Source of the DNA: Collimonas arenae
Lineage (GTDB): Bacteria; Pseudomonadota; Gammaproteobacteria; Burkholderiales; Burkholderiaceae_D
DNA: 64,000 bases
Assembly: GCF_000786695.1 (NCBI RefSeq)
Contig: NZ_CP009962.1
Location: 3,472,001-3,536,000, forward strand
Direction of reading: 5' to 3'
Shown: positions 4,943-25,351 of the stretch, piece after piece
Numbering within the stretch: position 1 is the stretch's first letter
Layout: every line of letters starts with the position of its first letter
Program-made: the position numbers and the translations under genes
The notes under the pieces: model-generated
What the model was told of the DNA's origin: nothing
Database searches by the model: none
The model's input: only the letters and a program-made list of their open reading frames with translations

Positions 4943-4988
4943 GCGCAGCGGAATGTTGACGCGCGGCTGATCTGAATGGTGAGAAACG

Positions 4989-8621: not shown

Positions 8622-11137
8622 ACGCAACTCCCAAGGAAAACAAGACAGTATTAATTGTGGACGACGATGCGATGACTCGCGTGTTGGTAGTAGAAGCCCT
8701 TGAGCCGGAAGGCTTCGTGGTGGAAGAAGCGGACAGTGGCGCCAGAGGGATCGAAATGTTCCAGCAGATATGCCCGGATATCATCCTGCTGGACGTCAGC
8801 ATGCCGGGAATGGACGGCTTCGAGTGCTGCCGTCGCATACGCTCGTTACCCTATGGTGAACGCCTGCCAATTGTTGTGCTCACCGGCAACGACGACGACG
8901 ACTCTATCACGCGGGCATTTGAATCGGGGGCCACCGATTTTGCTTCCAAACCGATGCGCTGGAAGCTTCTCGGACACCGTGTGCGTTACCTGCTACGCGC
9001 GAGCGAAACTTTAGAGAGTCTGGCACGCAGCGAAGCCAGTCTCAAATACGCACAAGAACTGGCGCATGTCGGAAACTGGGAGTATCAGCCTGGCAACCCC
9101 GACGGCTACTGGTCACCCGAGGTTTATCGCATTCTTGGACTCGACGCAAAGAAGTCTCCCTCCAGCTTCGAGTCCTTGATGCAACGAGTTCCGGAGGATG
9201 ACCAGCCTCAGTTGCTGCAGTCGTTTATTAATCTGCGTACTGAGGGCACTAGCTACCAGATCGAACATCGCATTACACGTCCTGATGGCGCAGAGCAGAT
9301 TATTTTCCAACAGGCCGAAGCGGTACGCGAACAAGGGCGAACCCTGGCGTTGAGAGGTACTTTGCAGGACATCACTGAACGCAAGAAGAATGAAGCGAAG
9401 ATCGAATATCTGGTTAACCATGATGCACTTACCGATCTGCCCAATCGGAATTTACTGAGCGTACGCATGTCGCAGGCGATAGAACAGGCGCATCGCGGCG
9501 GCCAGCACATGGCCGTCATGGTTCTGGATCTGGATAGATTTAAATTCGTTAATGACAGTTTTGGCCATCATATCGGCGATTCCCTGCTCAAGGCAGTCGC
9601 GGCGAGGCTCAAGGCTGCCGTACGTGACGGTGATACGGTAGCACGACTGGGAGGAGATGAATTCGTCGTCATACTACCGGGGCTTACGGCTCCGGAAAAT
9701 GCAATGATTGTGGCCGCAAAGATTGTGACATCGTTTAACGAGATGTTCGCTTTGGGCGATCACGAATTGCACGTGACAACTAGTGTCGGCGTCAGTATCT
9801 ATCCTGAAGATGGCATCAATGGCGATACCTTGCTCAAGACCGCAGATGCCGCGCTGTATGCAGCCAAAGACAAAGGCAGGAACTGCGCTCACTGTTATAC
9901 GGCGGAAATGGGTGTCCAGATAGAAGAACAAGCCGATCTGGAAAAAGGCTTACACCAAGCTCTGCTGCGAAAGGAACTAGAGCTGCATTATCAGCCAAAA
10001 GTCAGTCTTAAGAGCGGCCAAGTCTACGGTGTGGAAGCATTAATTCGTTGGCGGCGGCCAGGCATCGGTTTAATCCCTCCAGACAGTTTTATTCCGCTGG
10101 CAGAGGAAACCGGGCTCATTATTCCGATCGGTGAATGGGTTCTGAGAAATGCCTGCGCCCAAGTGAAAGCCTGGCACATTGCCGGCTATAAGGATCTGAC
10201 CATAGCGGTCAATGTATCAGCGCTACAATTCCGGCAACAGAATATCCCGGAACTTGTGCGTAACGTTCTCGCTGACAGCAAGCTGGAACCCAAATATCTG
10301 GAGTTGGAGCTCACTGAAAGTGTGCTCATGCAAGATCCTGAAACGATAGCGCTGGCAATGCGAGAGCTGAAAGAAATCGGTGTGCGATTGTCCCTGGATG
10401 ATTTCGGTACCGGCTATTCCAGCCTTTCCTACCTCAAACAATTTCCCATTGATGTGGTTAAGATAGATCAATCCTTCATCCGCGACGTTACCAGCAGCAT
10501 CAACGGTGCATCGCTCACCAAATCTATCATTTCCATGGCGGAATCCTTGCATATGACGACGGTTGCCGAGGGCGTCGAGACAGAGGAGCAATTAGGGTTT
10601 TTGAATATAAACCGGTGTGACGCTATACAAGGCTACTACTTCAGCCGTCCGTTGCCTCTGAATGAAATGGTGAAATTGTTAGCCGAAAAAACGCATCTTC
10701 CATCTGATAGATGCCATAGCGAATCAGCCAAACGCACTGTGTTGTTGGTCGATGATGACAAAAAGACGTTGTCCGCTCTCAAACAGCTTCTGGGCCGAGA
10801 GGGGTACCATATATTGAGCACTACAAGCCAGCAAGAAGCACTGGAACTATTAACACTTCATCCTGTAGGAGTGGTAATTTGCGACGCCGGGATGCCGGAA
10901 ATACCGGGAACTGAGTTACTGCTACAGATCAAGAATCTATATCCGGAAATTGTCCGCCTTATGCTTTCCGATTACACCGAATTGCAAACGGTAACGGATG
11001 CCATCAATGAAGGAACCGTCCACAAATTTCTCAGCAAGCCCTGGGATGACGATCTGCTTCTGGCGCAGCTTGTCGAGTCGTTTCAACAGCACGAAGTGAA
11101 TGCGCAAACAACGCAAACACCGGATATCCGCGCATAA
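8618..11137 (+). CDS. Response regulator REC-PAS-GGDEF-EAL-REC (c-di-GMP turnover)
   Basis: An 839-residue soluble protein. Receiver 1 carries D59 (LLDVSMPGMDG). A PAS domain (about 145-265) follows, then GGDEF with intact GGDEF at 345-349 and EAL with the signature at 473-475 and the downstream DDFGTGYSS block. A second receiver closes the protein (D756, VVICDAGMPEIPG, followed by a proline-tryptophan KPW end as in RpfG-type receivers). Both a synthase and a phosphodiesterase motif look intact, so net activity cannot be predicted. Translationally coupled to the upstream kinase, which presumably phosphorylates one or both receivers. Two receivers on opposite ends of a GGDEF-EAL core is uncommon. 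Confidence 0.93.
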   Translation: MNATPKENKTVLIVDDDAMTRVLVVEALEPEGFVVEEADSGARGIEMFQQICPDIILLDVSMPGMDGFECCRRIRSLPYGERLPIVVLTGNDDDDSITRAFESGATDFASKPMRWKLLGHRVRYLLRASETLESLARSEASLKYAQELAHVGNWEYQPGNPDGYWSPEVYRILGLDAKKSPSSFESLMQRVPEDDQPQLLQSFINLRTEGTSYQIEHRITRPDGAEQIIFQQAEAVREQGRTLALRGTLQDITERKKNEAKIEYLVNHDALTDLPNRNLLSVRMSQAIEQAHRGGQHMAVMVLDLDRFKFVNDSFGHHIGDSLLKAVAARLKAAVRDGDTVARLGGDEFVVILPGLTAPENAMIVAAKIVTSFNEMFALGDHELHVTTSVGVSIYPEDGINGDTLLKTADAALYAAKDKGRNCAHCYTAEMGVQIEEQADLEKGLHQALLRKELELHYQPKVSLKSGQVYGVEALIRWRRPGIGLIPPDSFIPLAEETGLIIPIGEWVLRNACAQVKAWHIAGYKDLTIAVNVSALQFRQQNIPELVRNVLADSKLEPKYLELELTESVLMQDPETIALAMRELKEIGVRLSLDDFGTGYSSLSYLKQFPIDVVKIDQSFIRDVTSSINGASLTKSIISMAESLHMTTVAEGVETEEQLGFLNINRCDAIQGYYFSRPLPLNEMVKLLAEKTHLPSDRCHSESAKRTVLLVDDDKKTLSALKQLLGREGYHILSTTSQQEALELLTLHPVGVVICDAGMPEIPGTELLLQIKNLYPEIVRLMLSDYTELQTVTDAINEGTVHKFLSKPWDDDLLLAQLVESFQQHEVNAQTTQTPDIRA

Positions 11138-11202
11138 TCGATTTCAATAAATTCAAATCAATGAATAGCGCTACGGCTGACGTTTTCGGTCAACGCCGCG
11201 AT

Positions 11203-14200
11203 TCAATCGGCTTTCGAATCACGTTCCAGATACGAAAATCCCGGCATCCTGAGATATGCTTGTTCTTTGATGAAGTCGGCTACCTGCTCTGTCGGGATGG
11301 GCTGGCTAAAATAATAGCCTTGCATCATGTCACAAGAATGATCTCGCAAGAAATCAAGTTGAGACACATTTTCAACTCCCTCCGCCACCACCTCCAGGCG
11401 CAAGCTATGCGCTAACGCGATAATACTTTTGACAATAGCGGAATCATCAAGATCGTTGGGTACATCTTGGACGAAAGATTGGTCGATCTTGATAATATCG
11501 ACGTGAAAACGCTTCAGGTAAGCGAGAGAAGAGTAGCCCGTCCCGAAATCGTCAATAGTCAACCGCACCCCGAGATTGCGCAACTGATGCAGGGCATGCA
11601 AATTGTCTTCAGCATTTTCCATCAAAGTTCCCTCCGTGATCTCCAACTCGAGCAAGTGCGGAGACAATCCGGTTTCGGCCAAGACCCGTTCTATTTGAGC
11701 GACAAAATCGGCTTGCAACTGTCGAACGGAAAAATTAACAGCCATCCGCATGGCAGGCAAACCGGAATTTATCCAGCTTTGAAGTTGAGCACAAGCAGTA
11801 CGCATTACCCATTCACCAATGATGTTAATGAGATCGGTTTCCTCTGCAAGCGGAATGAATTCCTTGGGCTCCACCATGCCCCGAGTTGGATGACGCCAAC
11901 GCACCAGCGCTTCCATGCCGACAATCCGTCCTGTGTCGAATTGCACTTGCGGCTGATAGTAGACTTCCAGTTCTTTTCTATCGAGCGCCATGCGCAGATC
12001 GCTTTCCAGCCGCATGCGCTCTGACATCAAGCGTTCCATCGATGGTTCAAAAAACTTGAAACCAGAATTGGCTTTCTTGGCGCGATACATCGCAGTATCA
12101 GCATGCTGCAACAGCGTTCCCACATCAGTGCCGTCGGTTGGGTACAACGAAATGCCAATGCTGGCGCTGACAAAGATGCCATGACCTTCAATCAAAAACG
12201 GAGACGACAAGGAACGACAGATAGCCTGGGCGACTATGGTGGCGGTATCGGCACTGATCATGTCGACCAATACCACGGTGAATTCGTCCCCTCCCAAGCG
12301 GGCAACGCAGTCGACAGCCCTCACGCTGCGTCGAATCCGCCTCGCCACAGCCACCAGCAACTGGTCCCCTACATCGTGTCCGAGAGTGTCATTCACATAC
12401 TTGAAGCGATTCAGATCAAGGAACAGGACTGCCACTGCATTTTCTGCCTGCCCTGCATGCTCAATGCATTGCTTTAATTGTTCGAAAAACATAGCGCGAT
12501 TTGGAAGACCGGTCAGCGAATCCTTAAAAGCCAGGTCGCGCACACGCTTTTCCGCCCTGCTTGCTTCAATGATGCGTCTGACGCGCTGAGACAAGACAGT
12601 GAAGTGAATCGGCTTCGTGATGTAGTCGCTGGCGCCGGCTGTGAACGCGCGTTCCACCGAAATATTGTCATCCAGGCCAGTAATCATCAACACCGGAATA
12701 TTCCGGCCATTGGGAAGTTCATGTATGCGGGCGCAGGCGGTAAATCCATCCATTACCGGCATCACGGCATCCATCAAGATGACGTCCGGTTGCATGCGTT
12801 TGAGAATGTGCAAGGCTTGCCCTCCATTTTCAGCCTCAGCTACCCTAAAGCCATCTCTGAGCAGGGTATAACGCAATGCATTGCGAGTGCTGCGATCATC
12901 GTCCACCACCAGCACCAGAGCATTTCCTGTCACCGACACGACATTTTTCTGGCTTCCGATAAACGCCTCATTTCCCAGTAGCGTCACCACCTCGTCGAAC
13001 GCTGCATTCAGCTTTGGCAGCAGGGGACGAATTTCATCGATCTGCTGGTTAAGCGCAAGCTCCTCTACTTCCTTGGCGAATTGCGTTACATTAGTGGCGC
13101 CCAGATTGCCACTGCTGCCCTTGATTGTATGAGCCAAGGCCCGAGCGCATTCTGCATCCTTTTGGCTGACAGCATTTTCTAGCTGTTCCAGGTAGACAGG
13201 CGTATCCTCCAGATAAGGAGTGACTGCCTGTTGCAAGGATTCACCTAAAATGTCACGCAATTTATCAAATACGCTTCGGTCCAAAGCGACATCTTCGCTC
13301 TCGGTCTGGACCGATGCTGACAACGCTAGATGTTCATTTTCCGTGTGCGTGGAGTCATGCATGAGCCAGCGCTCCAGCTTGTACCGTAACTCGATCAAGG
13401 TGATCGGTTTTGCCAGATAATCGTCCATTCCGGCGGCCAGACATTTCTCTGCGTCGCCAGCCTGGGTATTGGCAGTCATAGCCACAATCGGCGTATGTCT
13501 CCCTTCTGCCTTTTCCAGATCGCGAATCCGCGCAGTGACTTCATAACCGTCCATCCCCGGCATGTTGCAATCCATGAGAATGAGATCGAACTTGTTACGT
13601 TGAATAATTTCTATCGCCCCCCAGCCATTGGCGGCAAACTCGCAATGACATCCACTCATGGCCAGCATGCCGGCAGCGACCATTTGATTGGTGCGATTAT
13701 CCTCGACCACTAACACCTGGTACTTTCCGGCAGCGGTCAAGTCGTCCCCTGATAATGAAGGCGCGGGAGCAGGAATCGTGTCTAACTCCTGACCGGACAT
13801 CAAATCCCGGATCCCGCTCAACAGCGCGCTCAAACGGATCGGCTTGCTCAGATAGACATCGGCTCCGAAGAACTTGACACTGTTCTGCAAGCCATAGCGA
13901 TCCAGAAGAAAGAAACGCGCTGTGGAAAGTCTCTGGTTGGACCGAATCTGTAGCGCCAGATCCACACCGTTGCCATCGGTCGTGCCACGATCCATGATGA
14001 TGATGGAATAAGGTATTTTCTGGGTCCGGCCAAGTTCTTCCAATGCCTCGCTACCGTTACTTACAACCTGGCAAAGCATCCCATAGCGAGCCAGGTTCTG
14101 TGCCAGGAAACTGCGTAAAACATTGCTCTCCTGGATCACGAGAACATGCATCCCGAGAAATACCTTATCAGGATGAACAACAGTTTGTATCTCGCTAGGC

Positions 14201-15690
14201 TGGCAACGGATCGTAAACCAGAATGTGGTTCCCTCCCCAGGCTGGCTGACGACGCCGATCTCCCCTCCCATCAATTCCACCAACTGTTTGCAAATCGCCA
14301 AACCAAGGCCGGTACCACCGTATTTACGAGCAGTAGTGCTGTCAGCCTGGGTAAACGATTCGAAGACATGCTGGACTGCATCCTGATTCATGCCGATGCC
14401 AGTGTCGCTGACCTCTATCCGCAAACTGAAGCAATCGTCGCTGTCTGTGGTACGCGATATATTCACCGCCACTTCGCCTTGTTCTGTGAATTTCAATGCA
14501 TTGCTGACCAAATTGATCAGCACTTGCCGCAAGCGCATTGAATCGCCTTTGATCCAGTCCGGGACATCTGAGGCAAGCAAATAACCGAATTCCAGTCCTT
14601 TCTGCTGCGCCTGTTTGGCGAGCAGTTCAAGGACTTCTTCAGTCAATTTCCCCAGATCAAAATCAATCTCCTCCAATACCAGCTTGTTGGCTTCCATTTT
14701 TGAAAAATCGAGTATGTCGTTGATCAAGTCAACAAGTGTGTGCGCTGAGTTCCAAGCAACCTCTACATATTCCAGTTGAGATTTTGTCAAACGCATCTCC
14801 TTGAGTATGTCCAGCATTCCCACCACGCCGTTCAGAGGAGTCCGTACTTCGTGGCTAACTGTTGCGGCAAATTTAGCTTTCATGAGTGCCGCGTACACGG
14901 CCTGGTCACGAGATTTTTTCAACTCTGCTTCTCGTTCCTCCAATACAGTCATCATTTTATTGAACGCATGTGCCATGTCGATGATGTCGCGCGGACCATC
15001 CAGACCGGCACGCATGCCCGACTCACCCGCTTCGGCGCGTCCCATCAGCTCAGACAAGGCATTCAGGGGCCGAATCAAATGGCGTGCCAGAAGACGCATG
15101 ATGCCCAGCAAGACGAGCGCGAACGAGAACGTAATAATCAGATTAACGACTAGCAAAGAAAGCACCAGGCGATTCATGGTCTCTTTGCCAAGAACAATAT
15201 GCACGTATCCGAGCAGCTGGACTTTGTTTTCCTGGAGTTCAAACGGTGACACTGCTTCACGGCCTTGATAGACCGGTGCGCCGAAACGCCATTCGTCGCC
15301 GGTTTCCTGTTCCAGGGTGGATTGCGTCATGCTGATATCCGGCCGTGGTACTTGAGATGACTTGATGTGCGCACCCTTCTTGGTTTGAGATAGCAGAATA
15401 TTGTGCGTGGCATCGGTAATATCGACCCGCAGAACGTCGGGAAACGCCAAGGAAGTGGCTACCTGATCGCGGACATTATCGGAGGAATGGTAAAGCAGAG
15501 CCAAAGTACTTTGACGCGCCAGGTTCTCTGCAATATGCAAGCCCTGCTCGATCAAGTAGCCTCGCATGCGTTGGCTGGTTTCCCATGAATTCATCAAGGA
15601 AGAGAACAAGGCTAGGCCAAGAATGGAAACAGTAACAATCGCCATCAGTTGTCGGCGAAATCCAGTGCGGTGCAAATATGATCGCAGCAT
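11203..15690 (-). CDS. Giant hybrid kinase fused to GGDEF-EAL (HK-REC-REC-HPt-REC-GGDEF-EAL)
   Basis: A 1495-residue membrane protein. TM1 (14-34) and TM2 (174-200) enclose a small CHASE8-like periplasmic domain, followed by HAMP, HisKA (H280, TVSHEVRTP), HATPase, receiver 1 (D567 kept but the N-terminal acidic pair replaced by QE, so it may be degenerate), receiver 2 (D707), HPt (H854, HTIKGSSGNLG), receiver 3 (D974), GGDEF (intact, about 1133-1137) and EAL (intact, about 1260). A whole phosphorelay ending in a c-di-GMP module is thus on one chain. It lies 103 bases after the binding-protein gene on the same strand and is convergent with the two-gene version to its left. Confidence 0.93.
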   Translation of the reverse strand: MLRSYLHRTGFRRQLMAIVTVSILGLALFSSLMNSWETSQRMRGYLIEQGLHIAENLARQSTLALLYHSSDNVRDQVATSLAFPDVLRVDITDATHNILLSQTKKGAHIKSSQVPRPDISMTQSTLEQETGDEWRFGAPVYQGREAVSPFELQENKVQLLGYVHIVLGKETMNRLVLSLLVVNLIITFSFALVLLGIMRLLARHLIRPLNALSELMGRAEAGESGMRAGLDGPRDIIDMAHAFNKMMTVLEEREAELKKSRDQAVYAALMKAKFAATVSHEVRTPLNGVVGMLDILKEMRLTKSQLEYVEVAWNSAHTLVDLINDILDFSKMEANKLVLEEIDFDLGKLTEEVLELLAKQAQQKGLEFGYLLASDVPDWIKGDSMRLRQVLINLVSNALKFTEQGEVAVNISRTTDSDDCFSLRIEVSDTGIGMNQDAVQHVFESFTQADSTTARKYGGTGLGLAICKQLVELMGGEIGVVSQPGEGTTFWFTIRCQPSEIQTVVHPDKVFLGMHVLVIQESNVLRSFLAQNLARYGMLCQVVSNGSEALEELGRTQKIPYSIIIMDRGTTDGNGVDLALQIRSNQRLSTARFFLLDRYGLQNSVKFFGADVYLSKPIRLSALLSGIRDLMSGQELDTIPAPAPSLSGDDLTAAGKYQVLVVEDNRTNQMVAAGMLAMSGCHCEFAANGWGAIEIIQRNKFDLILMDCNMPGMDGYEVTARIRDLEKAEGRHTPIVAMTANTQAGDAEKCLAAGMDDYLAKPITLIELRYKLERWLMHDSTHTENEHLALSASVQTESEDVALDRSVFDKLRDILGESLQQAVTPYLEDTPVYLEQLENAVSQKDAECARALAHTIKGSSGNLGATNVTQFAKEVEELALNQQIDEIRPLLPKLNAAFDEVVTLLGNEAFIGSQKNVVSVTGNALVLVVDDDRSTRNALRYTLLRDGFRVAEAENGGQALHILKRMQPDVILMDAVMPVMDGFTACARIHELPNGRNIPVLMITGLDDNISVERAFTAGASDYITKPIHFTVLSQRVRRIIEASRAEKRVRDLAFKDSLTGLPNRAMFFEQLKQCIEHAGQAENAVAVLFLDLNRFKYVNDTLGHDVGDQLLVAVARRIRRSVRAVDCVARLGGDEFTVVLVDMISADTATIVAQAICRSLSSPFLIEGHGIFVSASIGISLYPTDGTDVGTLLQHADTAMYRAKKANSGFKFFEPSMERLMSERMRLESDLRMALDRKELEVYYQPQVQFDTGRIVGMEALVRWRHPTRGMVEPKEFIPLAEETDLINIIGEWVMRTACAQLQSWINSGLPAMRMAVNFSVRQLQADFVAQIERVLAETGLSPHLLELEITEGTLMENAEDNLHALHQLRNLGVRLTIDDFGTGYSSLAYLKRFHVDIIKIDQSFVQDVPNDLDDSAIVKSIIALAHSLRLEVVAEGVENVSQLDFLRDHSCDMMQGYYFSQPIPTEQVADFIKEQAYLRMPGFSYLERDSKAD

Positions 15691-15793
15691 GATGTACTTA
15701 TCCGAATGAGTTGGTCAGGCCATGAACTAAAGATGGCGGCACAAACTCAGCCATTGGTCAAAAAAAATGGCTGCTCAACTGCTTTCTTTTGAT

Positions 15794-16852
15794 TCAAGGC
15801 TCCGGAAAAACGAAATCGAAACTCCGTTGCAGTTGATAATCTATATCCAATCCAATGTGACTGGCAGTACGCAAATTGACAGCTGTCAGTACCTCGCGCA
15901 ACGGCAATACGCCACGTTTTCGCGTTTCTCCTGCTATCACGCCAAGCGCGGAACTAGCTAGATCATGTCCCAATCCCAGGTTATCTGGATACAAGGCGAA
16001 TAAGGCACCCTTCTTGACGTGCAGGAAACTGCTTGAAAAAACCGGCACGCCACGACTCCAGGAGTCTTTCAACACCAAAGGCATAATCGTGTCTTCGTCC
16101 ACCGTCGTGGCATCCTGTGGCAGCCAGATTGCGTCTACCCGGCTGTCGGCTGAAGCGAAGGCGGCATCATAGAGCCGTGCCGCCGAAGCCAGATCGTGCG
16201 CTTCATGCGCCACCAGTTCCAAGCCTTGTGCCTTGGCTGCTTCACGCGCAATCTTGAGTAGCCATTCGTTATGTTGCGGGTCGTAGATGACAGTCACTCT
16301 TTTCGTACCAGGCAGCAGTTTTTTCAACAGCGCGAATAGCAGAGCCGGATCCGGTGTCAAACTGATGCCGGTCAGATTGCGGCTTTCGGTTTCAGGAATC
16401 GAAAGCACACCACCGACCACCACGACAGTATCGCTCTCCAATCCGGACGCTGCTTTCAATCCTTGGCGTCCGAGCGCAATCACCACCTTGGTGCCAAGGC
16501 GTTTCAACTGCGCGCTCAACTCCACCATATTGTTGTTCGATCCAATCGGATAAGTGTTTACCTGCGTTCTTGCTCTCTCTTGTATCCCCTCGATGATCTT
16601 GGCAAAGATACTGCGATACGGCTCACCGATATCAGGATACAAGACGGCAATCTGGCCTTTCCCTTCTTGTATCTCCAGTCGTTTCGCCATAGTTTCCGAA
16701 GCCGCCAGGACGAGCGTATTGTGTTCAAGGCGCAGGACATTCACGTCAACGCCGGTCCCTTGAGCCGCATGACCGGACGTCCCTGCCAGTAACCAGAACA
16801 AGCCGACCTCAATTCGCAACATCGCGGCATGTGAAATCCTCAGGGATAACAT
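15794..16852 (-). CDS. ABC-type substrate-binding protein, PF04392 (ABC_sub_bind) type
   Basis: About 352 residues. The frame is open further upstream, but that part overlaps the TonB receptor gene; a GTG-ATG pair at 16855/16852 starts 13 bases after the receptor stop and opens a plausible signal peptide (RIEVGLFWLLAGTSGHA). The body has the two-lobe pattern of ABC_sub_bind proteins (IAVLYPDIGEPYR, VVIALGRQGLKAA, VTVIYDPQHNEW, FSSSFLHVKKGALFALYPD). No ABC permease or ATPase is nearby. Its position between a TonB-dependent receptor and a hybrid kinase suggests it hands a ligand from the outer membrane to the kinase sensor. Confidence 0.85.
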   Translation of the reverse strand: MLSLRISHAAMLRIEVGLFWLLAGTSGHAAQGTGVDVNVLRLEHNTLVLAASETMAKRLEIQEGKGQIAVLYPDIGEPYRSIFAKIIEGIQERARTQVNTYPIGSNNNMVELSAQLKRLGTKVVIALGRQGLKAASGLESDTVVVVGGVLSIPETESRNLTGISLTPDPALLFALLKKLLPGTKRVTVIYDPQHNEWLLKIAREAAKAQGLELVAHEAHDLASAARLYDAAFASADSRVDAIWLPQDATTVDEDTIMPLVLKDSWSRGVPVFSSSFLHVKKGALFALYPDNLGLGHDLASSALGVIAGETRKRGVLPLREVLTAVNLRTASHIGLDIDYQLQRSFDFVFPEP

Positions 16853-16865
16853 CACCGTAGGCCGC

Positions 16866-18974
16866 CTAGAGCTTGTGCTGAAACTGCACATAGAAGGTGC
16901 GCCCCGGCAGCGGCAGATCAAAAGGGATGTTGCCCGGCGCAAAACTCGGATCCTTGGCATCCCGGTTGAACAGATTCAGCACCATTGCGGTGACGCTCCA
17001 ATTGCCGATCAGCTTCTCCTTCCGCAGGTTCAGGTCAACCGTCGTGTAGTCGGCAATCGGAGGACGGGTGTCTCCCGGTTGCCGTTTTCGATCAGCAACA
17101 TGGTTAATTGTCGTACCCAATCGCCACAGCGGCGCCAAACGCCAGTCTGCGCGGGCGAACAACCTTTGATGCGGCGCGAGGCCAGCATCCTGGCCGCTGC
17201 GCTGGTCGACGGAATGCTGCAATGAATAATTACCGGAAAGGCGCAAGCTACGCGTTGCATCCCAAATGGCTTCCAATTCAAGTCCACGTCCAGTCTGGTC
17301 TCCTGTATTTTGGGCGGTGGAGCCTGTTGACGGATCGGCATTCGGCACGAATTCAATCAGATTGTGCATGCGATAGTAGTACAGGCTCAAATTGGTTTGG
17401 AGCGATTGAGTGGGTTGCCATGCAAACGCCAGTTCGCGCGTATTGATCGTTTCCGGCTTTAGATTGGGATTGCCGATCGTAACCGGGTTGTTCATACTGT
17501 ACTGCTCGGTGAACGACGGTGCGCGAAACGCGCTTCCATACAAGGCTTTGACTGAAAAATTGTAGGCGACGTCCCAGACCAGCGCCACGCGCGGATTAGT
17601 CGTACTGCCGAAATCGGAGTAACGGTCCGTCCGTACGCCTGCGGTGAGAATCCAGTCTTTCGCCAATGTCCACTCATCCTGCGCAAAGACATAAGCGACG
17701 GTGCGCTTATGAGGAGTGAGGAACACAAAACTCGTGCCGCTGACATCTACCACGCTGCCTAGCGGAACAAATGAAGGGCCCACACCAGGAATATCGACGA
17801 TCTGGAAATTTTTTTTCTCATTGGTCTCGTACATATCCTCTATGTTGTAGCCGGCGCCGAGCCGGATCCGATGCCTGTCGAAGCCGGTATAAAAACCCGA
17901 CAAGCTGAATTGACTGTCGCGTTCGGCGTGTCCGGGATTACCGATGACGCCATTCGGGAACGCGCCGCCAAAAGCGCCTGGCGGAAAGAGCACTGTGTTG
18001 GGGTCCGCCTGTAAATCCTTGACATCGCGCAGTGACACTTGCGCCGTGACATCCCAATTGCGGGAAAATGCAGGGTTAGCGTAGCTGAGATCCGTATTCC
18101 AGCGTCGCCCCCTGACCCGGCCTTGCGGATCCAGTGCTTCCGCCAGTCCGACGCCAGTTCCCATCTCCCTGTCTTGATAACCGGCGCGCAATCGCCATAA
18201 GCCATAACTCAGGTCCACATTCATATCAAGCGTATTGCGCATCATGTTTTCCGGCCCGGGAGCAAGCGACGCATGCGTGCCGAAAATTTTATCCAGACCG
18301 GTTTGCGTGTCCGCATCCACTGTCTTAGTGGAGCCGCCTGTGTGACCAGCGGCCAGATAGAAAGCAACATCCACCGGCCCCATTTTCCCGCCATGCAAAA
18401 ACCAGGCGTCATGCGTATCCTGCGATCCAGCCCGTAACCCGTACTCAGTGCCATTGATATCGGCAGACGTCTTGGTAATGATATTGATGACCCCCGCAAA
18501 TGCATCCGCACCGTATAAAGCAGACCCAGGGCCACGAATGATCTCAATGCGCGCGATGTTTTCGAGCGGCATACCGCCCCACGCGAGACCCTGATTGCCA
18601 AGAAAGGCAGTGTTGATAGAGATGCCATTTACAAGCATCAAGGTATCTGAGTTGTATTTTGAGGTAATGCCGCGAAAGGAATATATCGGGTCGTTGTACA
18701 ACCCTGAAAAGGAAACATGCAAGCCTGGGACGCTTTCTAGCACTTGATCAAGCTGCGTCGCACCCATTGCCCGAATGTCTTCGGCAGTAATCACAGAGGC
18801 GACGGCTGGGGCGCGGGAAATTGTTTGCTGGCTGCCAGTAGCAATGCTGACGACCGCTTTGCTCCCATATGAGAGGGCTAGATCATCTTCTTCAGAATTT
18901 TGCTGGGCAGTAGCGACACCGGCGCTCAGCAGCAGGACCACAAACGGAACGCGAGATTGCCATTGTTTTCTCAT
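16866..18974 (-). CDS. TonB-dependent outer-membrane receptor
   Basis: A 702-residue receptor with a signal peptide (cleavage after ATA, about 23), a plug domain (VASVITAEDIRAMGATQLDQ, then IEIIRGPGSALYGADAFAGV) and a long barrel with the usual GSAFRAPSFTEQY and late NLKPE blocks. The barrel imports a ligand using TonB energy. It lacks an obvious N-terminal extension for sigma-factor signalling. Closely followed by the binding protein (13 bases) and preceded by the citrate-synthase-like pair (81 bases). Barrel features alone do not reveal the ligand. Confidence 0.93.
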   Translation of the reverse strand: MRKQWQSRVPFVVLLLSAGVATAQQNSEEDDLALSYGSKAVVSIATGSQQTISRAPAVASVITAEDIRAMGATQLDQVLESVPGLHVSFSGLYNDPIYSFRGITSKYNSDTLMLVNGISINTAFLGNQGLAWGGMPLENIARIEIIRGPGSALYGADAFAGVINIITKTSADINGTEYGLRAGSQDTHDAWFLHGGKMGPVDVAFYLAAGHTGGSTKTVDADTQTGLDKIFGTHASLAPGPENMMRNTLDMNVDLSYGLWRLRAGYQDREMGTGVGLAEALDPQGRVRGRRWNTDLSYANPAFSRNWDVTAQVSLRDVKDLQADPNTVLFPPGAFGGAFPNGVIGNPGHAERDSQFSLSGFYTGFDRHRIRLGAGYNIEDMYETNEKKNFQIVDIPGVGPSFVPLGSVVDVSGTSFVFLTPHKRTVAYVFAQDEWTLAKDWILTAGVRTDRYSDFGSTTNPRVALVWDVAYNFSVKALYGSAFRAPSFTEQYSMNNPVTIGNPNLKPETINTRELAFAWQPTQSLQTNLSLYYYRMHNLIEFVPNADPSTGSTAQNTGDQTGRGLELEAIWDATRSLRLSGNYSLQHSVDQRSGQDAGLAPHQRLFARADWRLAPLWRLGTTINHVADRKRQPGDTRPPIADYTTVDLNLRKEKLIGNWSVTAMVLNLFNRDAKDPSFAPGNIPFDLPLPGRTFYVQFQHKL

Positions 18975-19055
18975 TTTCGATCCATTTCATGTAATCAAAA
19001 TTCTGCTAAAAGATATATGCCCGATATCTGTCTTTTCCTATCACAAGCAAGCGCC

Positions 19056-19862
19056 CTATTCTTGCTGCCACCTGCGTCGCCCTGGCCCCTCATAACACAG
19101 CTGTGTGCATCGAAGCGGAAATGTCGCGCCCTCCGGGCGTTCGCTGGCCTCCATATAACAAGGAGGCATCCCGGCCATAAATGAAGGCTGCAGGAACAGG
19201 TAGCACTCCCGCGGAGAAAGTCCCATGTCCAAGGGAATCGCTACCACTACAGCTGCATAGTTGATGGGCAACTGCCGTCCCATCTGGAGCAAGCCTCGTT
19301 CAATATCGAAAGCCAATTGCAGATAGGGCCCTTGTTCAATCTGTTCACGGCCCATGTGAGCGAGAATGGCTGGAATGCGTTCATCCACCTGAAGCGTGGC
19401 AACCGGCCTGCCATATCCCAGAATGCGGCGATGCTGTTGCAGCTCCTGTGTCAATACTACTTGGAGGGCTTCCCCTGCTTGCGTTCGGTTGTAGGCGCGG
19501 ACCAGGAAATCCGCTGCGGCAATTTCAGGCTGCCAGCCATAGATGCTGGCCTCCGATACGGCAATTGCGGCCGCGATACCAAGGGCGCCAGTACTGCGGG
19601 CGCTGCCTGCCAAGGCGGCGACGCGGTTATTCCATAGCCTCGGATCTGGATAACTGGTGTAGGTCCAGAGGGCATGCAGAACACTTATCTGTTGTGGCGA
19701 AAAGCGGCGACCGGTAATGCCGAAAGTATAAAGTTCTATCCAATCCATATCTTTCAGGTCGGCATGCAAATCATGACCGCGAAACACCGCTCGCTGCCCT
19801 GGAAAACAGGCTCCCATGCGAGTACGTAACGGCCCCTCGTAATCTAACAAGGTATTTCTCAT
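19056..19862 (-). CDS. Citrate-synthase-fold protein, second of pair (catalytic residues apparently lost)
   Basis: A 268-residue protein whose N-terminal half is clearly of the citrate synthase/citryl-CoA lyase fold (TYTSYPDPRLWNNRVAALAG at 67-86, then AVSEASIYG). By eye, the three catalytic positions of citrate synthase are changed: the first His site reads IYG (Y108), the second reads GYGRP (R152) and the Asp site reads NYAA (A203). It overlaps the upstream paralogue by 4 bases, which suggests a heteromeric complex. I infer altered chemistry or a structural/binding role; the alignment was made without tools. Confidence 0.75.
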   Translation of the reverse strand: MRNTLLDYEGPLRTRMGACFPGQRAVFRGHDLHADLKDMDWIELYTFGITGRRFSPQQISVLHALWTYTSYPDPRLWNNRVAALAGSARSTGALGIAAAIAVSEASIYGWQPEIAAADFLVRAYNRTQAGEALQVVLTQELQQHRRILGYGRPVATLQVDERIPAILAHMGREQIEQGPYLQLAFDIERGLLQMGRQLPINYAAVVVAIPLDMGLSPRECYLFLQPSFMAGMPPCYMEASERPEGATFPLRCTQLCYEGPGRRRWQQE

Positions 19863-20680
19863 TTAGACTCTTTCTGACATGAAGGTCCTGGATCGTTTTC
19901 CAGATCCAGTTCAAAGAAAGGAAAAAGACGGAAACCTTGTTTTCCCTGTTCCAGAGCATGGGCAGCGGCGCCTGGCAAACGCAGCAGCAAGGTCAGCATC
20001 TCCCCCTCGTTGGGAGAAAAATCCAGATCGGCAAGTGCAGCTGCGGCAACACCGGTCATCGCCAGAGGAAAACCGGCCGCCGTTTCCAGCGCGGCCCTCT
20101 CCTGCTGAAGCCACGCCAGACATCCTGCGGGCAGGATGTCTGCGAGAAGCGAAAGAGTCCGCAACACAGGGGCCGCGCAATGTTTTCCATAGGGATCGAA
20201 GCCCGCCGGATGCTCTAGCTCCGGCCATACCTGCAAACGCGTGGGCGGCACCGGCGAAGCCAGACTGGAACACCAGTTTGCAAGCTCAGTTCCGTTATTT
20301 TCCCAAGCTCCTAAAGCCAGAAAAACTTCCCGTGCGCCGCCGTAGGAACCTGCGCCAACAGCCACCGCAGCCATGAGGACCGAGGCAGCAGTGGAGCCAC
20401 CGACTCCGGCCGCCATCGCTGCATGCACGGAGGGGTCACGCGGGCCTGGATTGGCCAGAGCCACAGCTAGGATCTCCAATGCCGCAATGGCGCCCGGCGT
20501 CGGCCGCTCGCCCTTGAAAAGGAGGTACATGTATTCGATATAACTAGCCTTGCCAAGCAAATCTCCGTAGACATCGTATCCTCTGCAATAGCAGGCGGCA
20601 GCCGCGAAAGGATTGTCGGCTTGTGGCTCTTCCTCCCAGATGCTGCTACGAATCGTGTTTGGATTTACGGCATGACTCAT
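19859..20680 (-). CDS. Citrate-synthase-fold protein, first of pair (citryl-CoA lyase-like)
   Basis: A 273-residue protein starting at ATG 20680, which has a GGGGGATGAG-type ribosome site; an upstream ATG at 20704 has none. The order of blocks follows citryl-CoA lyases: YCRGYDVYGDLLGKASYIEY, GVGGSTAASVLMAAVAVGAG, SYGGAR, LEHP, then AAAALADLDF and LLLRLPGAAAHALEQ. The first catalytic His is replaced by Tyr (Y113), the second His may be kept (H157), and the Asp position reads TG (T209). Sits 26 bases after the dehydrogenase and overlaps its partner. Substrate unknown. Confidence 0.75.
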   Translation of the reverse strand: MSHAVNPNTIRSSIWEEEPQADNPFAAAACYCRGYDVYGDLLGKASYIEYMYLLFKGERPTPGAIAALEILAVALANPGPRDPSVHAAMAAGVGGSTAASVLMAAVAVGAGSYGGAREVFLALGAWENNGTELANWCSSLASPVPPTRLQVWPELEHPAGFDPYGKHCAAPVLRTLSLLADILPAGCLAWLQQERAALETAAGFPLAMTGVAAAALADLDFSPNEGEMLTLLLRLPGAAAHALEQGKQGFRLFPFFELDLENDPGPSCQKESK

Positions 20681-20706
20681 CTCATCCCCCTGTTCAACGC
20701 GCACAA

Positions 20707-21456
20707 TTAAAGCAAGCTCATTCCACCATCGACGACAATCTCTTCTCCGACCACGTAAGCCGCATCGTCGGAGGCCAGGAACAAGGCGACCTTGGCGACC
20801 TCCTCCGGCATTCCGAAACGCTTGATCGGCGATTTGCGCTCCATCTCGCTTTTAATTGCCTGGACTGTCTCTGATGGCAGGCCGAAACGGTCGAACATGG
20901 GAGTCGCAATGGGTCCGGGGCTGATTGCATTGATCCTGATCCCGCGACCGATGAATTCCAGGCTTAATGACTGCACTAGCGAGCGCAAAGCGGCCTTGCT
21001 TGCACCGTAGACACTAAAATTTGGCGAGCCTAATTGGTTGGTGATGGATGTAGTGACAATAATCGATGCGCTGTCACCAAAGAGCGGAAGCGCTTTCTGG
21101 ATGGTGAAAAAAGCACCTTTGAAATTAATTCCTGCGATTTCATCGAATAACTCTTCGGAAACCGACTCTATCGAAGCCGCTGTGGCGACAGCAGCATTGA
21201 CGAACAATATATCCAGGCGTTCAAAATGCTTCTTTACTTGCTGCATGAGGGCATCTATTTCTACCAGATCAGCGGCATTGCTGCGAATGGCAACGGTTTC
21301 GCCACCCAGCTCTTTCCTTGCGCGTTCCAACGCATCCGGATCGCGCCCTGTAATCACCAGACGTGCGCCACGCTCCAGAAACAGTTTCGCAGTTGCAAGG
21401 CCAATTCCACTCGAACCGCCTGTGATGAGTACGTTTTTTCCTTCGAGTTTATTCAT
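20707..21456 (-). CDS. Short-chain dehydrogenase/reductase
   Basis: A 249-residue classical SDR. It has the nucleotide-binding TGGSSGIG (12-19), the NAA motif (87-89), catalytic N111, S137, Y150 and K154 (YGASK), and the PGPIATPM loop, ending in VDGGMSLL. All key residues are present, so it should be an active NAD(P)(H) oxidoreductase, probably reducing or oxidising a hydroxyketone or similar carbonyl. It starts 9 bases after the ThDP enzyme and precedes the citrate-synthase-like pair, so it probably acts on the product of the ThDP enzyme; that is inference. Confidence 0.93.
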   Translation of the reverse strand: MNKLEGKNVLITGGSSGIGLATAKLFLERGARLVITGRDPDALERARKELGGETVAIRSNAADLVEIDALMQQVKKHFERLDILFVNAAVATAASIESVSEELFDEIAGINFKGAFFTIQKALPLFGDSASIIVTTSITNQLGSPNFSVYGASKAALRSLVQSLSLEFIGRGIRINAISPGPIATPMFDRFGLPSETVQAIKSEMERKSPIKRFGMPEEVAKVALFLASDDAAYVVGEEIVVDGGMSLL

Positions 21457-21465
21457 TGCGATTCC

Positions 21466-23328
21466 TTATAAGCCGCCAGCCAAAACCCGCATGCGGACAT
21501 TCATCGGGGGCACTTCTTCGCGGTCGATCAGCACATCCAGCAGCGTCGGCCCCTTACGGGCGCACATGGCTGCGATATCCAACGTGCATAATTCCTCCGG
21601 TGTACGAATAGTGTGCGCCTGTGCACCCATGGCGCGCGCCATTGCAGCGAAATCGGTGAAAGGCAAATCACAGCCTATTTGTTCCGCCCGGGCAAGCCGC
21701 TGGCCATGCTTGACCATTCCCAAAGCCTGATCGTTGAGGACAACGAAAATGACGGTTTGCCGTTCAGCGACGGCTACCGAGATTTCCTGGCCGTTCATCA
21801 GAAAACTGCCGTCTCCGGTAATGCACACTACCGGCACGTTAGGATTACCTACGGCAGTGCCGATGGCGCCGCCAATGGCCCAACCCATCGGGGCAAAATT
21901 CATGATGACGCGTAGCCATCCAGCACTTGTCTTGCGCCGGCCAGCTGCGAACGCGCTGCCCCTCCCCTCTCGCCGCCTTTCGCCGACACGCCGATCTTTG
22001 CTGAGTTGCAGGTAATGAACGGCCCAAGCAACGCTATTGCCGGTATCTGCGAGAAAACGGGTGGTTGGCGGGAACAGCCGGCCTAGTTCACGCATCAGCC
22101 GTTGCGGAAGAATGGGCACGGCACTGCTCTCGTATTTATCGGGAGCGGCAAGCATTTCCCGTGGATTCCAATCGGCGCCGTGCTGCTTGCGAACAAAAGA
22201 GCGACGTTCTTGCTCGTAGTTTCCTGTCCGGCGAATGTCAAACATATGCTTGAGCAATCGCTCGAAAATCGACAGGATGCGCCCCCTCACGTGCAAGCGG
22301 GCCATCGGTGTATCCGTAAGATGCTCCTCCGAGTCGTCGATGTGCACGAGCCGGGCATTAAGCACGCTATCGCTCCAGCCGCCACTGTTCCATTCCCCCA
22401 TTCCCGTGCCGATAGCAATGATCAAATCTACCGATTTATCGCGCAACAGGGTTTCTGCCGAAGCATGACCGGCAAAGCCGAATACGCCGCGGAAAAGCGG
22501 ATGACGCGAGCTAACCAAGCCCTTGCCGTCAGGCGTAGTGATAACTGAAGCGCCGCTGAGGTCAGCGAACTCAAGGACGGAACCGATGGCTTCGCCACAG
22601 CCCGCACCAATCAGCAAAACAATATTTTTGGCGCTGAACAGCATCACATTCAGTGCTGCCAGCGCTTCGTCATCAACCGACGACGACGGTTGCAGAAGCG
22701 CCAACAGGCCATAGGAGGGGGTCAATTGCGTGTTGACGCTACGAAACACATCCACCGGTATGCTTAAATGTACCGGCCCCATTGGCGCCCTGACGGCTCG
22801 CTGCAGTGCAGTCATGAGTTTGTTCTCGAACTGCAGCGGATGGGACACCAATGAATTGTAGCGAGTGCAATGTTGCAGCATGCCTAGCGTATCGATTCCG
22901 GTACATGTGGATTCTTGCAGCGGATGTTTGCCGAAAGTAGGCAAGGCTGTCTGCGCCGTGATCACCAGCATTGGAATATTATTGTCGTAGGCGCAGGCGA
23001 CACCGGTGATCAAATTTGTGGCGCCAGGACCGGACGTGGCGCAGCAAACACCGATTTTTCCCGTTTCCCGCGCATAACCATCTGCCATAAATGCAGCTCC
23101 TGCTTCGTGCCGGGCCAAGACATGGCGTACACCACCCCTACGAGCACTTTTGGCAAGTGCATTGAAAAGAGGCTCAATGGCGCCTCCGGGAACGCCGAAA
23201 ACGCACGCAATTTCCATCTGCTCAAGATAGGTCACCAACAGATCCGCTATCTCCATTGGATGTTCAAGAATCAGCTTTGCATTGCGACTTGGCGCATCGT
23301 CGTAAGTCTGCAAATTTTCAATTCCCAT
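21466..23328 (-). CDS. ThDP-dependent enzyme, acetolactate synthase-like
   Basis: A 620-residue enzyme of the acetolactate synthase/benzoylformate decarboxylase superfamily. The N-terminal Pyr domain has the catalytic Glu (E75 in RHEAGAAFMADGYAR) and SGPGATN; the C-terminal PP domain has GDGS (505-508) with N532 for metal-ThDP binding, and ALGMVKHGQRL. A basic, arginine-rich insert at about 444-469 (RRVGERRREGRGS and onward) interrupts the start of the PP domain and is not usual in the family. ATG 23328 has a G-rich ribosome site. First gene of the four-gene operon; no IlvH-type regulatory subunit is nearby, so it is unlikely to be the housekeeping enzyme. Confidence 0.88.
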   Translation of the reverse strand: MGIENLQTYDDAPSRNAKLILEHPMEIADLLVTYLEQMEIACVFGVPGGAIEPLFNALAKSARRGGVRHVLARHEAGAAFMADGYARETGKIGVCCATSGPGATNLITGVACAYDNNIPMLVITAQTALPTFGKHPLQESTCTGIDTLGMLQHCTRYNSLVSHPLQFENKLMTALQRAVRAPMGPVHLSIPVDVFRSVNTQLTPSYGLLALLQPSSSVDDEALAALNVMLFSAKNIVLLIGAGCGEAIGSVLEFADLSGASVITTPDGKGLVSSRHPLFRGVFGFAGHASAETLLRDKSVDLIIAIGTGMGEWNSGGWSDSVLNARLVHIDDSEEHLTDTPMARLHVRGRILSIFERLLKHMFDIRRTGNYEQERRSFVRKQHGADWNPREMLAAPDKYESSAVPILPQRLMRELGRLFPPTTRFLADTGNSVAWAVHYLQLSKDRRVGERRREGRGSAFAAGRRKTSAGWLRVIMNFAPMGWAIGGAIGTAVGNPNVPVVCITGDGSFLMNGQEISVAVAERQTVIFVVLNDQALGMVKHGQRLARAEQIGCDLPFTDFAAMARAMGAQAHTIRTPEELCTLDIAAMCARKGPTLLDVLIDREEVPPMNVRMRVLAGGL

Positions 23329-23670
23329 GTCGGCCCCCCCTCTATGACAGGGAAATTGCGGTGATCCGTCGACGTATGGCGAGATCAGAGATAAGCCATT
23401 TCAGATGGCTTATTTATTTCCACATGGCAATTTATTGTAATCCTATCCAGATCAATCACCAAGCTCAATCATCAAATCACGCATCAAATTGGCAACAGGA
23501 TTGTAAGAAGAACAGCCTGCATCTGGTGTGCCCGAGGTGACGGCACACTCTGTCAAGTGGCGCTGCAGAATCGCCGTAACCCGCCTTGCGGTCCGTTTTA
23601 GTACTAGGAACCAAGTGCCTGAGCGGCGACCATGAACGGGCACGGTATTTAACTGAGGTGTTCTGGGCGT
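23329..23670. other. Promoter-bearing gap between the ThDP operon and a diguanylate cyclase gene
   Basis: About 340 bases with no credible gene. It contains the 23-base palindrome (23391-23413) and should carry the promoter of the seven-gene minus-strand run. The rest is AT-rich around 23400-23520 with no clear terminator for the upstream diguanylate cyclase. Confidence 0.5.
23391..23413. promoter_or_regulatory. Perfect 9+5+9 palindrome upstream of the ThDP operon (candidate operator)
   Basis: The arms ATAAGCCAT (23391-23399) and ATGGCTTAT (23405-23413) are perfect inverted copies around TTCAG. The centre is about 73 bases upstream of the ThDP gene start, where an operator or activator site would be expected. 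It could also fold in RNA, and the plus-strand side is followed by a T-rich run, but no plus-strand gene ends here. Confidence 0.5.
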
Positions 23671-25215
23671 TTATACATTACACACCTCGGGAAAAAAGCA
23701 GACACGGTCACGCCCTGTATTTTTTGCCACATAAAGGGATTTGTCAGCGTCGTCAATTAAACGAGCGGCCGTATCGTCTCGTCTAACCAGCGTACGTGCG
23801 CTCACTCCTGCGCTGATCGTTACAATGCCGGAGGTATTTTCGGCATGAGGAATCCTCAGGTTTCTCACCGCGAGACGGACACTTTCCGCTACTCTCATGG
23901 CCCCTTCAATATCACTATCAGGGAGAACAATAGCCATCTCTTCGCCGCCATAGCGTGCCGCCAGATCACGAATGCGCTTTTCAGAAATTTTGACCGCACC
24001 GGCGATTTTCCGCAGACAATCGTCTCCCGCCGGATGTCCATAAATATCGTTGTATCGCTTGAAATTATCAACGTCAATCATGACTACCGCCAATGATCCG
24101 GCATCATGCTTGGCTTTTCTCAATTCTTCTTCGATGACGATGTCAAACCGGCGACGATTCGCCAATCCGGTTAGGCCGTCCTGCAACGCCAATTTTTCTA
24201 GCGTCCGGTTCAATGTCTCCACTTTGTCGCGGGCATCCCTTGCTTCCACCTCGGCATCTACCCGCAGGCGAATTTGAGAAACAAGATGAAATCCGAGCCA
24301 ACCCAGGACGCAAATCAAAAGCAAGGTAATGGTCGTGTGGAGATAGGTATCCGTCTGCCATTCGGCGAGTATTTCACTCTTGGCCAATGAGGCCGTCACA
24401 AACATGGGATAACGCTTCAGATGGCGATAGGCGATCAGCCGTTCTATGCCGTCTTGGTTGGACAGTATCATGGCTGTCCCGCTATCATTTTTTGCGATGT
24501 AATCACGAAACAAATCACCATCCTTGATGCTTTTTCCAATGGATTTTTCCAGCGACGGCCGACGAATCAGCATCGTTCCATTGTCAAGACCAAGGATGGA
24601 GGCTCCCAGTTTTCCGATGTCGATACTGTCATAAAACTTCCGGAAATATTCGACGTCGATTGTGGCCAGCACAACCCCACCGAAGCTGCCATCGCCATGG
24701 TTTACTCTACGGCTCAATGTAAGAATCCATTTTCCGGTAGAACGGCTTTGGATCGGAGGTCCAACGTGGGCTGTGAGTTCGGTGTGGGTCCGATGATAGA
24801 CAAAGTATTCCCGGTCCGAATTATTTAAATTCTGGGCAACGACCTTTTGGGAATTTACAAGCCATTTCCCATTTTCGTCATACACAAAAATACCTTGCAG
24901 CTGCGGCGACTCGGTCACCCGATTCATCAGATATCGATGCAAACGATCCAATGCAGTGGCGCTCGTCCCATCCACCGACAACCGTTCAACAAGCCCAACC
25001 AATGCAGCATCTGCATCTTTGAACGTATCATCGGCATGCTGCGCCAGAGTCCGGGCTAGGTTCGACGTCGCCACCACCGATTCCCCCATTTGTATTTCAC
25101 GCGCATGCCAGCTCCGCCAGCCATCTATACTGATAAGTGACATACAAACCAGGACAACAAAGGCGCCAGCCAACAGCGTAACCGGCAGACGAGAAAGGCG
25201 GGGCAGCGATTTCAT
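23671..25215 (-). CDS. Membrane diguanylate cyclase with Cache sensor
   Basis: A 514-residue protein: TM1 (about 12-32), a dCache-like periplasmic domain (SDREYFVYHRTH, RRVNHGDGSFGGVVLATIDV), TM2 (about 293-313), a short coiled coil and a C-terminal GGDEF domain (DGLTGLANRRRFD). The active-site signature reads GGEEM rather than GGEEF, a change at the least critical position, so activity is likely. Cache domains usually bind small metabolites. Ribosome site AAGG lies 7 bases before the ATG. Stands alone, upstream of the ThDP operon on the same strand. Confidence 0.92.
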   Translation of the reverse strand: MKSLPRLSRLPVTLLAGAFVVLVCMSLISIDGWRSWHAREIQMGESVVATSNLARTLAQHADDTFKDADAALVGLVERLSVDGTSATALDRLHRYLMNRVTESPQLQGIFVYDENGKWLVNSQKVVAQNLNNSDREYFVYHRTHTELTAHVGPPIQSRSTGKWILTLSRRVNHGDGSFGGVVLATIDVEYFRKFYDSIDIGKLGASILGLDNGTMLIRRPSLEKSIGKSIKDGDLFRDYIAKNDSGTAMILSNQDGIERLIAYRHLKRYPMFVTASLAKSEILAEWQTDTYLHTTITLLLICVLGWLGFHLVSQIRLRVDAEVEARDARDKVETLNRTLEKLALQDGLTGLANRRRFDIVIEEELRKAKHDAGSLAVVMIDVDNFKRYNDIYGHPAGDDCLRKIAGAVKISEKRIRDLAARYGGEEMAIVLPDSDIEGAMRVAESVRLAVRNLRIPHAENTSGIVTISAGVSARTLVRRDDTAARLIDDADKSLYVAKNTGRDRVCFFPEVCNV

Positions 25216-25351
25216 TCGTTACCTTTAATGGTTATATGACGGGCCCTGGCCAACCTATATCAACACGGCAAACAAGTCTGATGTCAATGTCTGCCTGATG
25301 ATTCAAGCATCGCTTCGGATTGCATCGGCAATGTCCAGTGTGCATACTGCA

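Follow-up and report, generated by a model that had tools for sequence, protein, structure and literature searches.

A run of seven genes in the window analysed here (the whole 64,000-nucleotide stretch of the Collimonas arenae genome) encodes a thiamine diphosphate (ThDP)-dependent enzyme, a short-chain dehydrogenase/reductase (SDR), two citrate synthase-like proteins (CS1 and CS2), a TonB-dependent receptor (TBDR), a PF04392 periplasmic binding protein (BP) and a hybrid sensor kinase. We consider it rather probable that these genes form a dedicated module which makes, recaptures and senses one metabolite and has cyclic di-GMP (c-di-GMP) as its output. The make–recapture–sense idea had been put forward in the first-pass annotation of this DNA, and it holds with respect to linkage and co-occurrence, as all three receptor parts (TBDR, BP and sensor) accompany the enzymes in 42/49 long loci and the BP is present in 37/43 genomes with CS2; on these comparative grounds the reading of the genes as one make–recapture–sense unit is strongly supported. 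A self-made signal with a dedicated sensor is a known kind of system. No description of this gene set was found in the open-access literature searched, most subscription journals and bioRxiv being outside that search.

Linkage and divergence of the enzyme and receptor genes

As the first-pass annotation had advised, conservation of the gene order was checked, and the order ThDP–SDR–CS1–CS2–TBDR–BP–sensor is identical in 5/5 other copies from the same genus. Among 15 genomes of the genus, CS1 and a high-scoring BP are both present in six and both absent in nine. A clean empty site was not found in the genomes of the genus that have no module, two of which aligned only at a pilB-like neighbouring gene and one further stretch; one genome of the genus (G001) measures 1.7 Mb at 99% completeness, compared with 4.5–5.9 Mb for the others. 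The order ThDP–CS1–CS2–TBDR–BP, without the SDR, is found in three genomes of other genera, in two of which the sensor comes next. The third of these loci (L048) has no sensor in its stretch and carries a sulfotransferase and an adenosine 5'-phosphosulfate (APS) kinase between CS2 and the TBDR, and its genome holds a second TBDR–BP–kinase set elsewhere (L049).

CS2 has 211 relatives in a scan of species genomes. The loci of the 80 best, picked by CS2 alone, were searched with profiles grown from the window proteins. They come mostly from Betaproteobacteria, together with Gammaproteobacteria, relatives of Geobacter and a few odd bins, and their hosts include Gallionella, Sideroxydans, Ferrigenium, Dechloromonas, Geobacter and Collimonas; four same-genus loci and two others are counted both under G handles and in this set (L051–L130). 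All 49 loci of at least 18.5 kb (long loci; the 31 shorter loci are excluded from the counts out of 49) have the ThDP enzyme and CS1, with the TBDR in 47, the BP in 42, the sensor in 42 and all three receptor parts in the same number. Three of these complete long loci (L085, L107 and L113) have weak sensor-domain scores of 45–56 bits, and with strict scores 39/49 are complete. The corresponding counts for all 80 loci are 74 (ThDP enzyme), 80 (CS1), 72 (TBDR), 63 (BP), 59 (sensor) and 58 (all three receptor parts). The first-pass annotation had named enzyme genes that in most relatives lack an accompanying receptor/kinase as the outcome that would speak against its proposal, and the long loci display the opposite. 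Taking the leftmost TBDR of each locus, the BP and sensor lie on the opposite strand from the TBDR in 15/58 loci, so that the linkage survives rearrangement and is more than an unbroken ancestral operon.

The co-occurrence was counted in a single sample of 369 genomes from the class, the window genome included, in which CS2 is present in 43 genomes, a BP of at least 200 bits in 44 and both in 37, compared with 5.1 expected (hypergeometric p = 2e-37, ignoring kinship). The cut-off of 200 bits was set after the scores had been seen, the lowest score kept being 200.8 and that of the next genome 147.6; with a cut-off of E = 1e-15, which 58 genomes pass, 38 of the 43 CS2 genomes have a BP. The two genes share a contig in 29 of the 37 genomes, and in 28 of these they are at most 8 kb apart, start to start. 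Where CS2 is remote or partial (<200 bits; 15 genomes), a BP is present as well in 12. This remote subfamily, with 24–30% identity to the window CS2, has a TBDR near CS2 in all 11 inspected stretches and CS1 in 9/11; the BP in 9/11 is not an independent count because nine of the stretches were picked for a BP already known on the contig. In three loci of the subfamily the GGDEF–EAL part is a separate response-regulator gene. As far as these counts go, with kinship ignored in the statistics, synthase and dedicated receptor are inherited together, as in autoinducer systems.

A conceivable alternative is that two neighbouring units with unrelated ligands stand together by chance or through shared regulation. 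Receptor sets without the CS pair, as in the seven genomes that have the BP without CS2 and in L049, would fit this explanation, but the co-occurrence, the persistence of linkage through rearrangement and the joint divergence of the parts in one lineage make it very improbable, and two unrelated operons brought together by chance were rejected on the linkage in the CS2-picked loci and the co-occurrence in the 369 genomes. The seven BP-only genomes were all inspected, and three of them are represented by short contigs (8.1, 7.9 and 18.7 kb). Receiver sets of TBDR, PF04392 protein and sensor without CS1/CS2 were seen at L049 (5643–11427), L143 and L147, and these may be listeners.

The joint divergence emerged from identity comparisons among chosen groups of 16 betaproteobacterial, two gammaproteobacterial, three Geobacter-type, 11 remote-subfamily and eight receiver-only loci. 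The Geobacter-type loci are L085, L107 and L113, of the class Desulfuromonadia (checked for Pelotalea). Their CS1 and CS2 are 54–57% identical to those of the window, the betaproteobacterial medians being 60 and 57% (16 loci), whereas their ThDP enzymes and TBDRs have 32–33% identity each and their BPs 23–25%; the sensor input domain of L107 is remote too, with a median identity of 19% to the rest. The synthase and its receptors thus seem to have changed in concert in this lineage. Over 51 complete loci, the distances of the ThDP enzyme correlate more closely with those of the TBDR (0.76), BP (0.78) and sensor (0.69) than with those of CS1 and CS2 (0.32 and 0.39). Without L107 and L113 the former values fall to 0.61, 0.58 and 0.55, with 0.46 and 0.56 for CS1 and CS2, and the contrast between the ThDP enzyme and the CS pair as partners of the receptors therefore rests on one lineage. 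On a bold reading of these comparisons, the identity of the product is determined by the ThDP enzyme, which the TBDR, BP and sensor follow.

The enzymes and their putative product

The ThDP enzyme contains three TPP domains (Pfam), and its closest solved relative is BbmA (8x3x), with CsmA (8x3z) also among the nearest. The Geobacter-type ThDP partner of L113 aligns with BbmA over its full length at 479 bits, whereas the window enzyme is a weaker match at 280 bits; the literature search described above returned no account of the reaction or products of BbmA/CsmA. The cofactor motif GDG-x(24–28)-N is present in 72/73 long relatives of the ThDP enzyme, and 53/73 match a stringent motif for the ThDP glutamate. 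The enzyme falls under the cut-off for all 25 NCBIfam models listed of the 57 matched, including ScyA-type models; the best of the 57, the acetolactate synthase model TIGR00118, is matched at 300.7 bits compared with a cut-off of 538.35 bits, and ordinary acetolactate synthesis was rejected as these curated cut-offs are missed. A hydroxyketone-like product formed from 2-oxo acids is a plausible guess from the chemistry of the family.

CS1 and CS2 have no Pfam match at an E value of 0.001, and models of citryl-CoA lyase were matched under their cut-off. The predicted structure of CS1 has a predicted local distance difference test (pLDDT) score of 84 and is best matched in fold by the citryl-CoA lyase 6hxp (TM-score 0.64/0.69); that of CS2 has a pLDDT of 79 and also matches 6hxp best (E = 1.3e-6), with a root-mean-square deviation of 14, because of which its likeness to 6hxp is one of general fold only. 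A single-sequence search of the PDB with CS2 gave no match. According to the models, CS1 clearly, and CS2 less surely, adopts the citrate synthase/citryl-CoA lyase fold shared with 6hxp. The His of the GYGH motif and the Asp of the LNVDG stretch of 6hxp are taken here to be the catalytic residues of citryl-CoA lyase. In profile alignments to 6hxp, on which these site positions rest, the GYGH-type His of CS1 (His165) is kept in 48/50 rows, whereas CS2 has Arg152 at the His position in 50/50 rows, and the Asp is found in neither protein (0/50 rows each). Because the Asp of the citryl-CoA lyase site is missing, it is unlikely that CS1 and CS2 carry out the usual citrate chemistry or are citrate-type enzymes of the usual kind; on these site residues, citrate or citryl-CoA chemistry of the ordinary sort was rejected as an assignment. 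In 66 of the 76 cases in which the two genes adjoin, they overlap by exactly four bases. This arrangement suggests that the two are coupled as a heteromer, and CS1 and CS2 probably form one heteromeric complex.

The first-pass annotation had assigned four enzymes to the biosynthesis of a small molecule. Of these four, the ThDP enzyme, CS1 and CS2 are kept together in the long loci; the SDR is optional, as it is matched anywhere in 24/49 long loci and between the ThDP gene and CS1 in 20/49, and the CS pair probably departs from the citrate-type enzymes that the name of the fold implies. Extra tandem copies were also observed, of the CS pair in L058 (9135–13636) and of ThDP–CS1–CS2 in L130 (7341–14585).

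Additional enzyme genes occur in some copies. In L048 the sulfotransferase, APS kinase and cytochrome P450 genes, the last of them after the BP, occupy 7682–9648 and 13604–14830, and sulfotransferases, APS kinase or P450 lie in or near the module also in L059, L070, L092, L095, L096, L103 and L126; a sulfotransferase is present in four of the 49 long loci. These genes hint at sulfated or oxidised variants of the product.

The same enzymes could instead consume a compound from outside the cell, detected by the receptor and sensor, the locus then being one of sensing and consumption. Citryl-CoA lyase relatives and some ThDP enzymes are generally known to run in the degrading direction, and linkage alone cannot separate substrate from product. 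However, the sulfotransferase, APS kinase and P450 genes resemble tailoring functions, and no recurrent permease that would pass a compound from periplasm to cytoplasm was found at the module among the families present in at least four loci (single loci were not checked individually). There are 15 such families; representatives of eight were checked, six being housekeeping or unrelated enzymes and two having no Pfam match, and the other seven were judged by eye. We regard consumption as unlikely.

Proposed recapture, sensing and c-di-GMP output

The TBDR matches 31 NCBIfam models, and the 25 of these that were listed, among them models of hemin, siderophore and B12 receptors, all lie under their cut-offs. 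These matches, the typical use of TonB receptors in metallophore uptake and the many hosts whose names mark them as iron bacteria (Gallionella, Sideroxydans, Ferrigenium and Geobacter) are consistent with a product that is a metallophore, re-imported as its metal complex, with the BP and sensor reporting the metal-loaded form and metal supply as the primary role. Against this explanation, which we judge about as improbable as consumption, stand the lack of a recurrent permease family in the neighbourhood survey described above, the c-di-GMP output in most loci and the search for a metal-responsive promoter, which covered the Fur box: the best match upstream of the ThDP gene agrees at 10/19 positions and those of the other five copies at 10–12, compared with 9–14 in 500 stretches drawn at random from the window. 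The missing permease and the absence of a Fur box above background make a plain nutrient role less likely.

On the receiving side, Pfam gathering cut-offs are passed by the window proteins for PF04392 (51.5 bits), sCache_4 (34.5 bits), GGDEF (164.5 bits) and EAL (260.4 bits). The PDB relatives of the PF04392 protein include 3lft and 3lkv, and such PF04392 proteins can presumably bind aromatic amino acids. In the kinase, Pfam recognizes sCache_4, HisKA, HATPase, three receivers, Hpt, GGDEF and EAL, and a HAMP domain scores 23.1 bits, just short of the cut-off of 25. Since the sensor has the kinase His box (HEVRTP) together with the motifs GGDEF, EAL and DDFG, it may make or break c-di-GMP. GGDEF and EAL are found in the sensor open reading frame of 49/59 sensors, 18 of which are without kinase and 31 of which act via a kinase relay; with the window sensor included, a literal GGDEF is present in 44/50 GGDEF–EAL sensors and DDFG in 50/50. 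The input domain of other sensors was called with a profile grown from the window sensor. With Pfam, sCache_4 is above the cut-off in one of seven relative sensors (L107, 22.7 compared with 22.1 bits), just under it in three (20.3–20.9 bits) and unmatched in three (L087, L089 and L113). The search of the input domain against solved structures gave a single weak match (E = 0.22).

From these parts the following sequence of events may be proposed. The ThDP enzyme would join or decarboxylate 2-oxo acids to give a hydroxyketone-like skeleton, which the CS1/CS2 pair would convert further without ordinary citrate synthase catalysis and which the SDR, where present, could reduce. The product would exit the cell, and the TonB receptor would return it to the periplasm, where the PF04392 protein would bind it; in its loaded form this protein would act on the hybrid kinase through the sCache_4 domain, and a phosphorelay would set the GGDEF–EAL output and hence c-di-GMP.

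The logic of binding protein to hybrid kinase is common to LuxP–LuxQ of Vibrio, where a periplasmic binding protein reports a self-made molecule, the autoinducer 2 of LuxS, to a hybrid kinase. The module differs in having a PF04392 BP, an sCache_4 input, a c-di-GMP output in the same chain, another synthase and an added TonB receptor; neither a LuxP-type BP nor a LuxQ-type periplasmic domain is matched, the kinase reaching 375 bits with the NCBIfam model of LuxQ compared with a cut-off of 1200. CqsA/CqsS and LqsA/LqsS use α-hydroxyketone signals made by pyridoxal phosphate (PLP) enzymes and sensors that bind the ligand directly. The module shares with them a synthase beside a sensor kinase and, plausibly, a hydroxyketone-like product, whereas it has a TonB receptor and a binding protein, which they do not; no aminotransferase-type Pfam family, as a PLP-type synthase would require, is among the matches of its seven proteins. 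The earlier statement that the module is built of different parts than CqsA/CqsS and LuxP/LuxQ agrees with these comparisons, the PLP synthase, LuxP-type BP and LuxQ-type input all being absent from its proteins. In the diffusible signal factor system, RpfF/RpfC/RpfG, a self-made signal acts through a hybrid kinase and changes c-di-GMP with an HD-GYP output. The steps from signal to hybrid kinase to c-di-GMP are shared with the proposed module, but the synthase is different, the output is HD-GYP and there is neither a TonB receptor nor a binding protein. The step from loaded binding protein to sensor kinase has counterparts in other pairs of the two, such as BctC–BctE, for which we know of no linked synthase. 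Loaded BctC switches the sensor kinase BctE (PMC9602780), as is proposed for the binding protein of the module, but what BctC reports is imported citrate.

Several observations weigh against the make–recapture–sense reading. Seven of the 49 long loci are without BP and sensor, two of these also being without the TBDR, and in the 369 genomes six of the 43 with CS2 have no BP and seven of the 44 with the BP have no CS2. Three of the six CS2-only genomes were inspected: L140 and L141 have the CS pair, a TBDR and a GGDEF–EAL protein and neither ThDP enzyme nor BP, and L149 has ThDP–CS1–CS2 without TBDR or BP. Conversely, the BP locus L147 has the TBDR, BP and sensor together with a ThDP enzyme and no CS pair. 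The ThDP enzyme is present in just five of the 11 remote-subfamily stretches, several of which stop at a contig end, and a fourth Desulfuromonad locus (L081) has no TBDR or BP in its 12 kb. Without L107 and L113, the TBDR tracks CS1 and CS2 (0.69 and 0.66) at least as well as it tracks the ThDP enzyme (0.61). The EAL motif reads EVL in 12/50 sensors, no exporter family is recurrent among the families in at least four loci, and the linkage could reflect sensing of a substrate and not of a product.

The spread of the module over many bacteria that are only distantly related makes it a possible system of chemical communication that has gone unrecognised. Somewhat less probable than the make–recapture–sense reading, and tentative, is the broader proposal that it represents a widespread class of Gram-negative autoinducer systems, in which a ThDP enzyme and a pseudo-citrate synthase pair make the signal, TonB recapture and PF04392/sCache_4 sensing lead to c-di-GMP, synthase and receptors are swapped around a constant CS1/CS2 to give private variants, and some genomes only receive. 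If true, this would be a signal class of environmental bacteria in which a new biosynthetic logic is combined with energy-driven uptake and which has a direct tie to c-di-GMP, the messenger of biofilm formation. The seven genes also define the few mutants, proteins and extracts with which the molecule could be found.

Gene arrangement and neighbouring genes

Positions, strands and assignments of the seven genes in the window
Feature	Position	Strand	Assignment and basis
ThDP-dependent enzyme, acetolactate synthase fold	21466..23328	-	Pfam TPP_enzyme N/M/C; proposed synthase setting product identity
SDR, short-chain dehydrogenase/reductase	20707..21456	-	adh_short_C2; optional tailoring reductase (proposed)
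CS1, citrate synthase/citryl-CoA lyase fold	19859..20680 (ATG), or 20704 (GTG)	-	Predicted fold, best match 6hxp
CS2, second citrate synthase-fold protein	19056..19862	-	Predicted fold, best match 6hxp; 4-base overlap with CS1
TBDR, TonB-dependent outer-membrane receptor	16866..18974	-	Pfam plug and barrel
BP, PF04392 periplasmic binding protein	15794..16852	-	PF04392, 51.5 bits; longest open reading frame starts at 16960
Hybrid sensor kinase	11203..15690	-	sCache_4-HAMP-HisKA-HATPase-REC-REC-Hpt-REC-GGDEF-EAL; Pfam, order by own profiles

The run of seven genes on one strand was described correctly in the first-pass annotation, all seven being found in place on the minus strand, and the gaps of 9, 26, −4, 81, 13 and 103 bases are correct provided that CS1 starts at the ATG, a position which is the first possible start in 3/5 same-genus relatives. 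The families it had named are present according to Pfam (ThDP enzyme, SDR, TonB receptor, PF04392 and GGDEF–EAL kinase) or, for the citrate synthase fold, according to predicted structures. Its remark that no clear terminator separates the genes agrees with a consensus scan, in which no gap contains a terminator-like site on the minus strand; the scan found eight such sites in 9000–25000, compared with 16.9 in shuffled sequences. An inverted repeat at about 15748–15773, in the gap between BP and kinase, lacks a T run after it and is missing from the remaining five copies of the genus (both by eye). Across the six same-genus copies, including that of the window, the CS2–TBDR gap measures 78–106 bases and the BP–kinase gap 88–136 bases.

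At a distance of 2.5 kb past the ThDP gene is a pilB-like gene; its protein contains a c-di-GMP-binding motif related to MshE (78.7 bits, cut-off 38) and is a candidate c-di-GMP effector. The gene is found 0.4–15 kb from the ThDP gene in the other five module-bearing Collimonas and is also present in two Collimonas without the module. It belongs to a stretch of the window (23671–30761, minus strand) that encodes a dCache-GGDEF protein, the pilB-like ATPase with MshEN and a dCache-PAS-GGDEF protein, all c-di-GMP-related. Tail to tail with the module, at 3695–11137 on the plus strand, is a second system of binding protein and c-di-GMP proteins, with genes for a Peripla_BP_6 protein, a hybrid kinase and a REC-PAS-GGDEF-EAL regulator; close relatives of this Peripla_BP_6 protein (at least 597 bits) occur in 4/15 Collimonas genomes, all of which bear the module.

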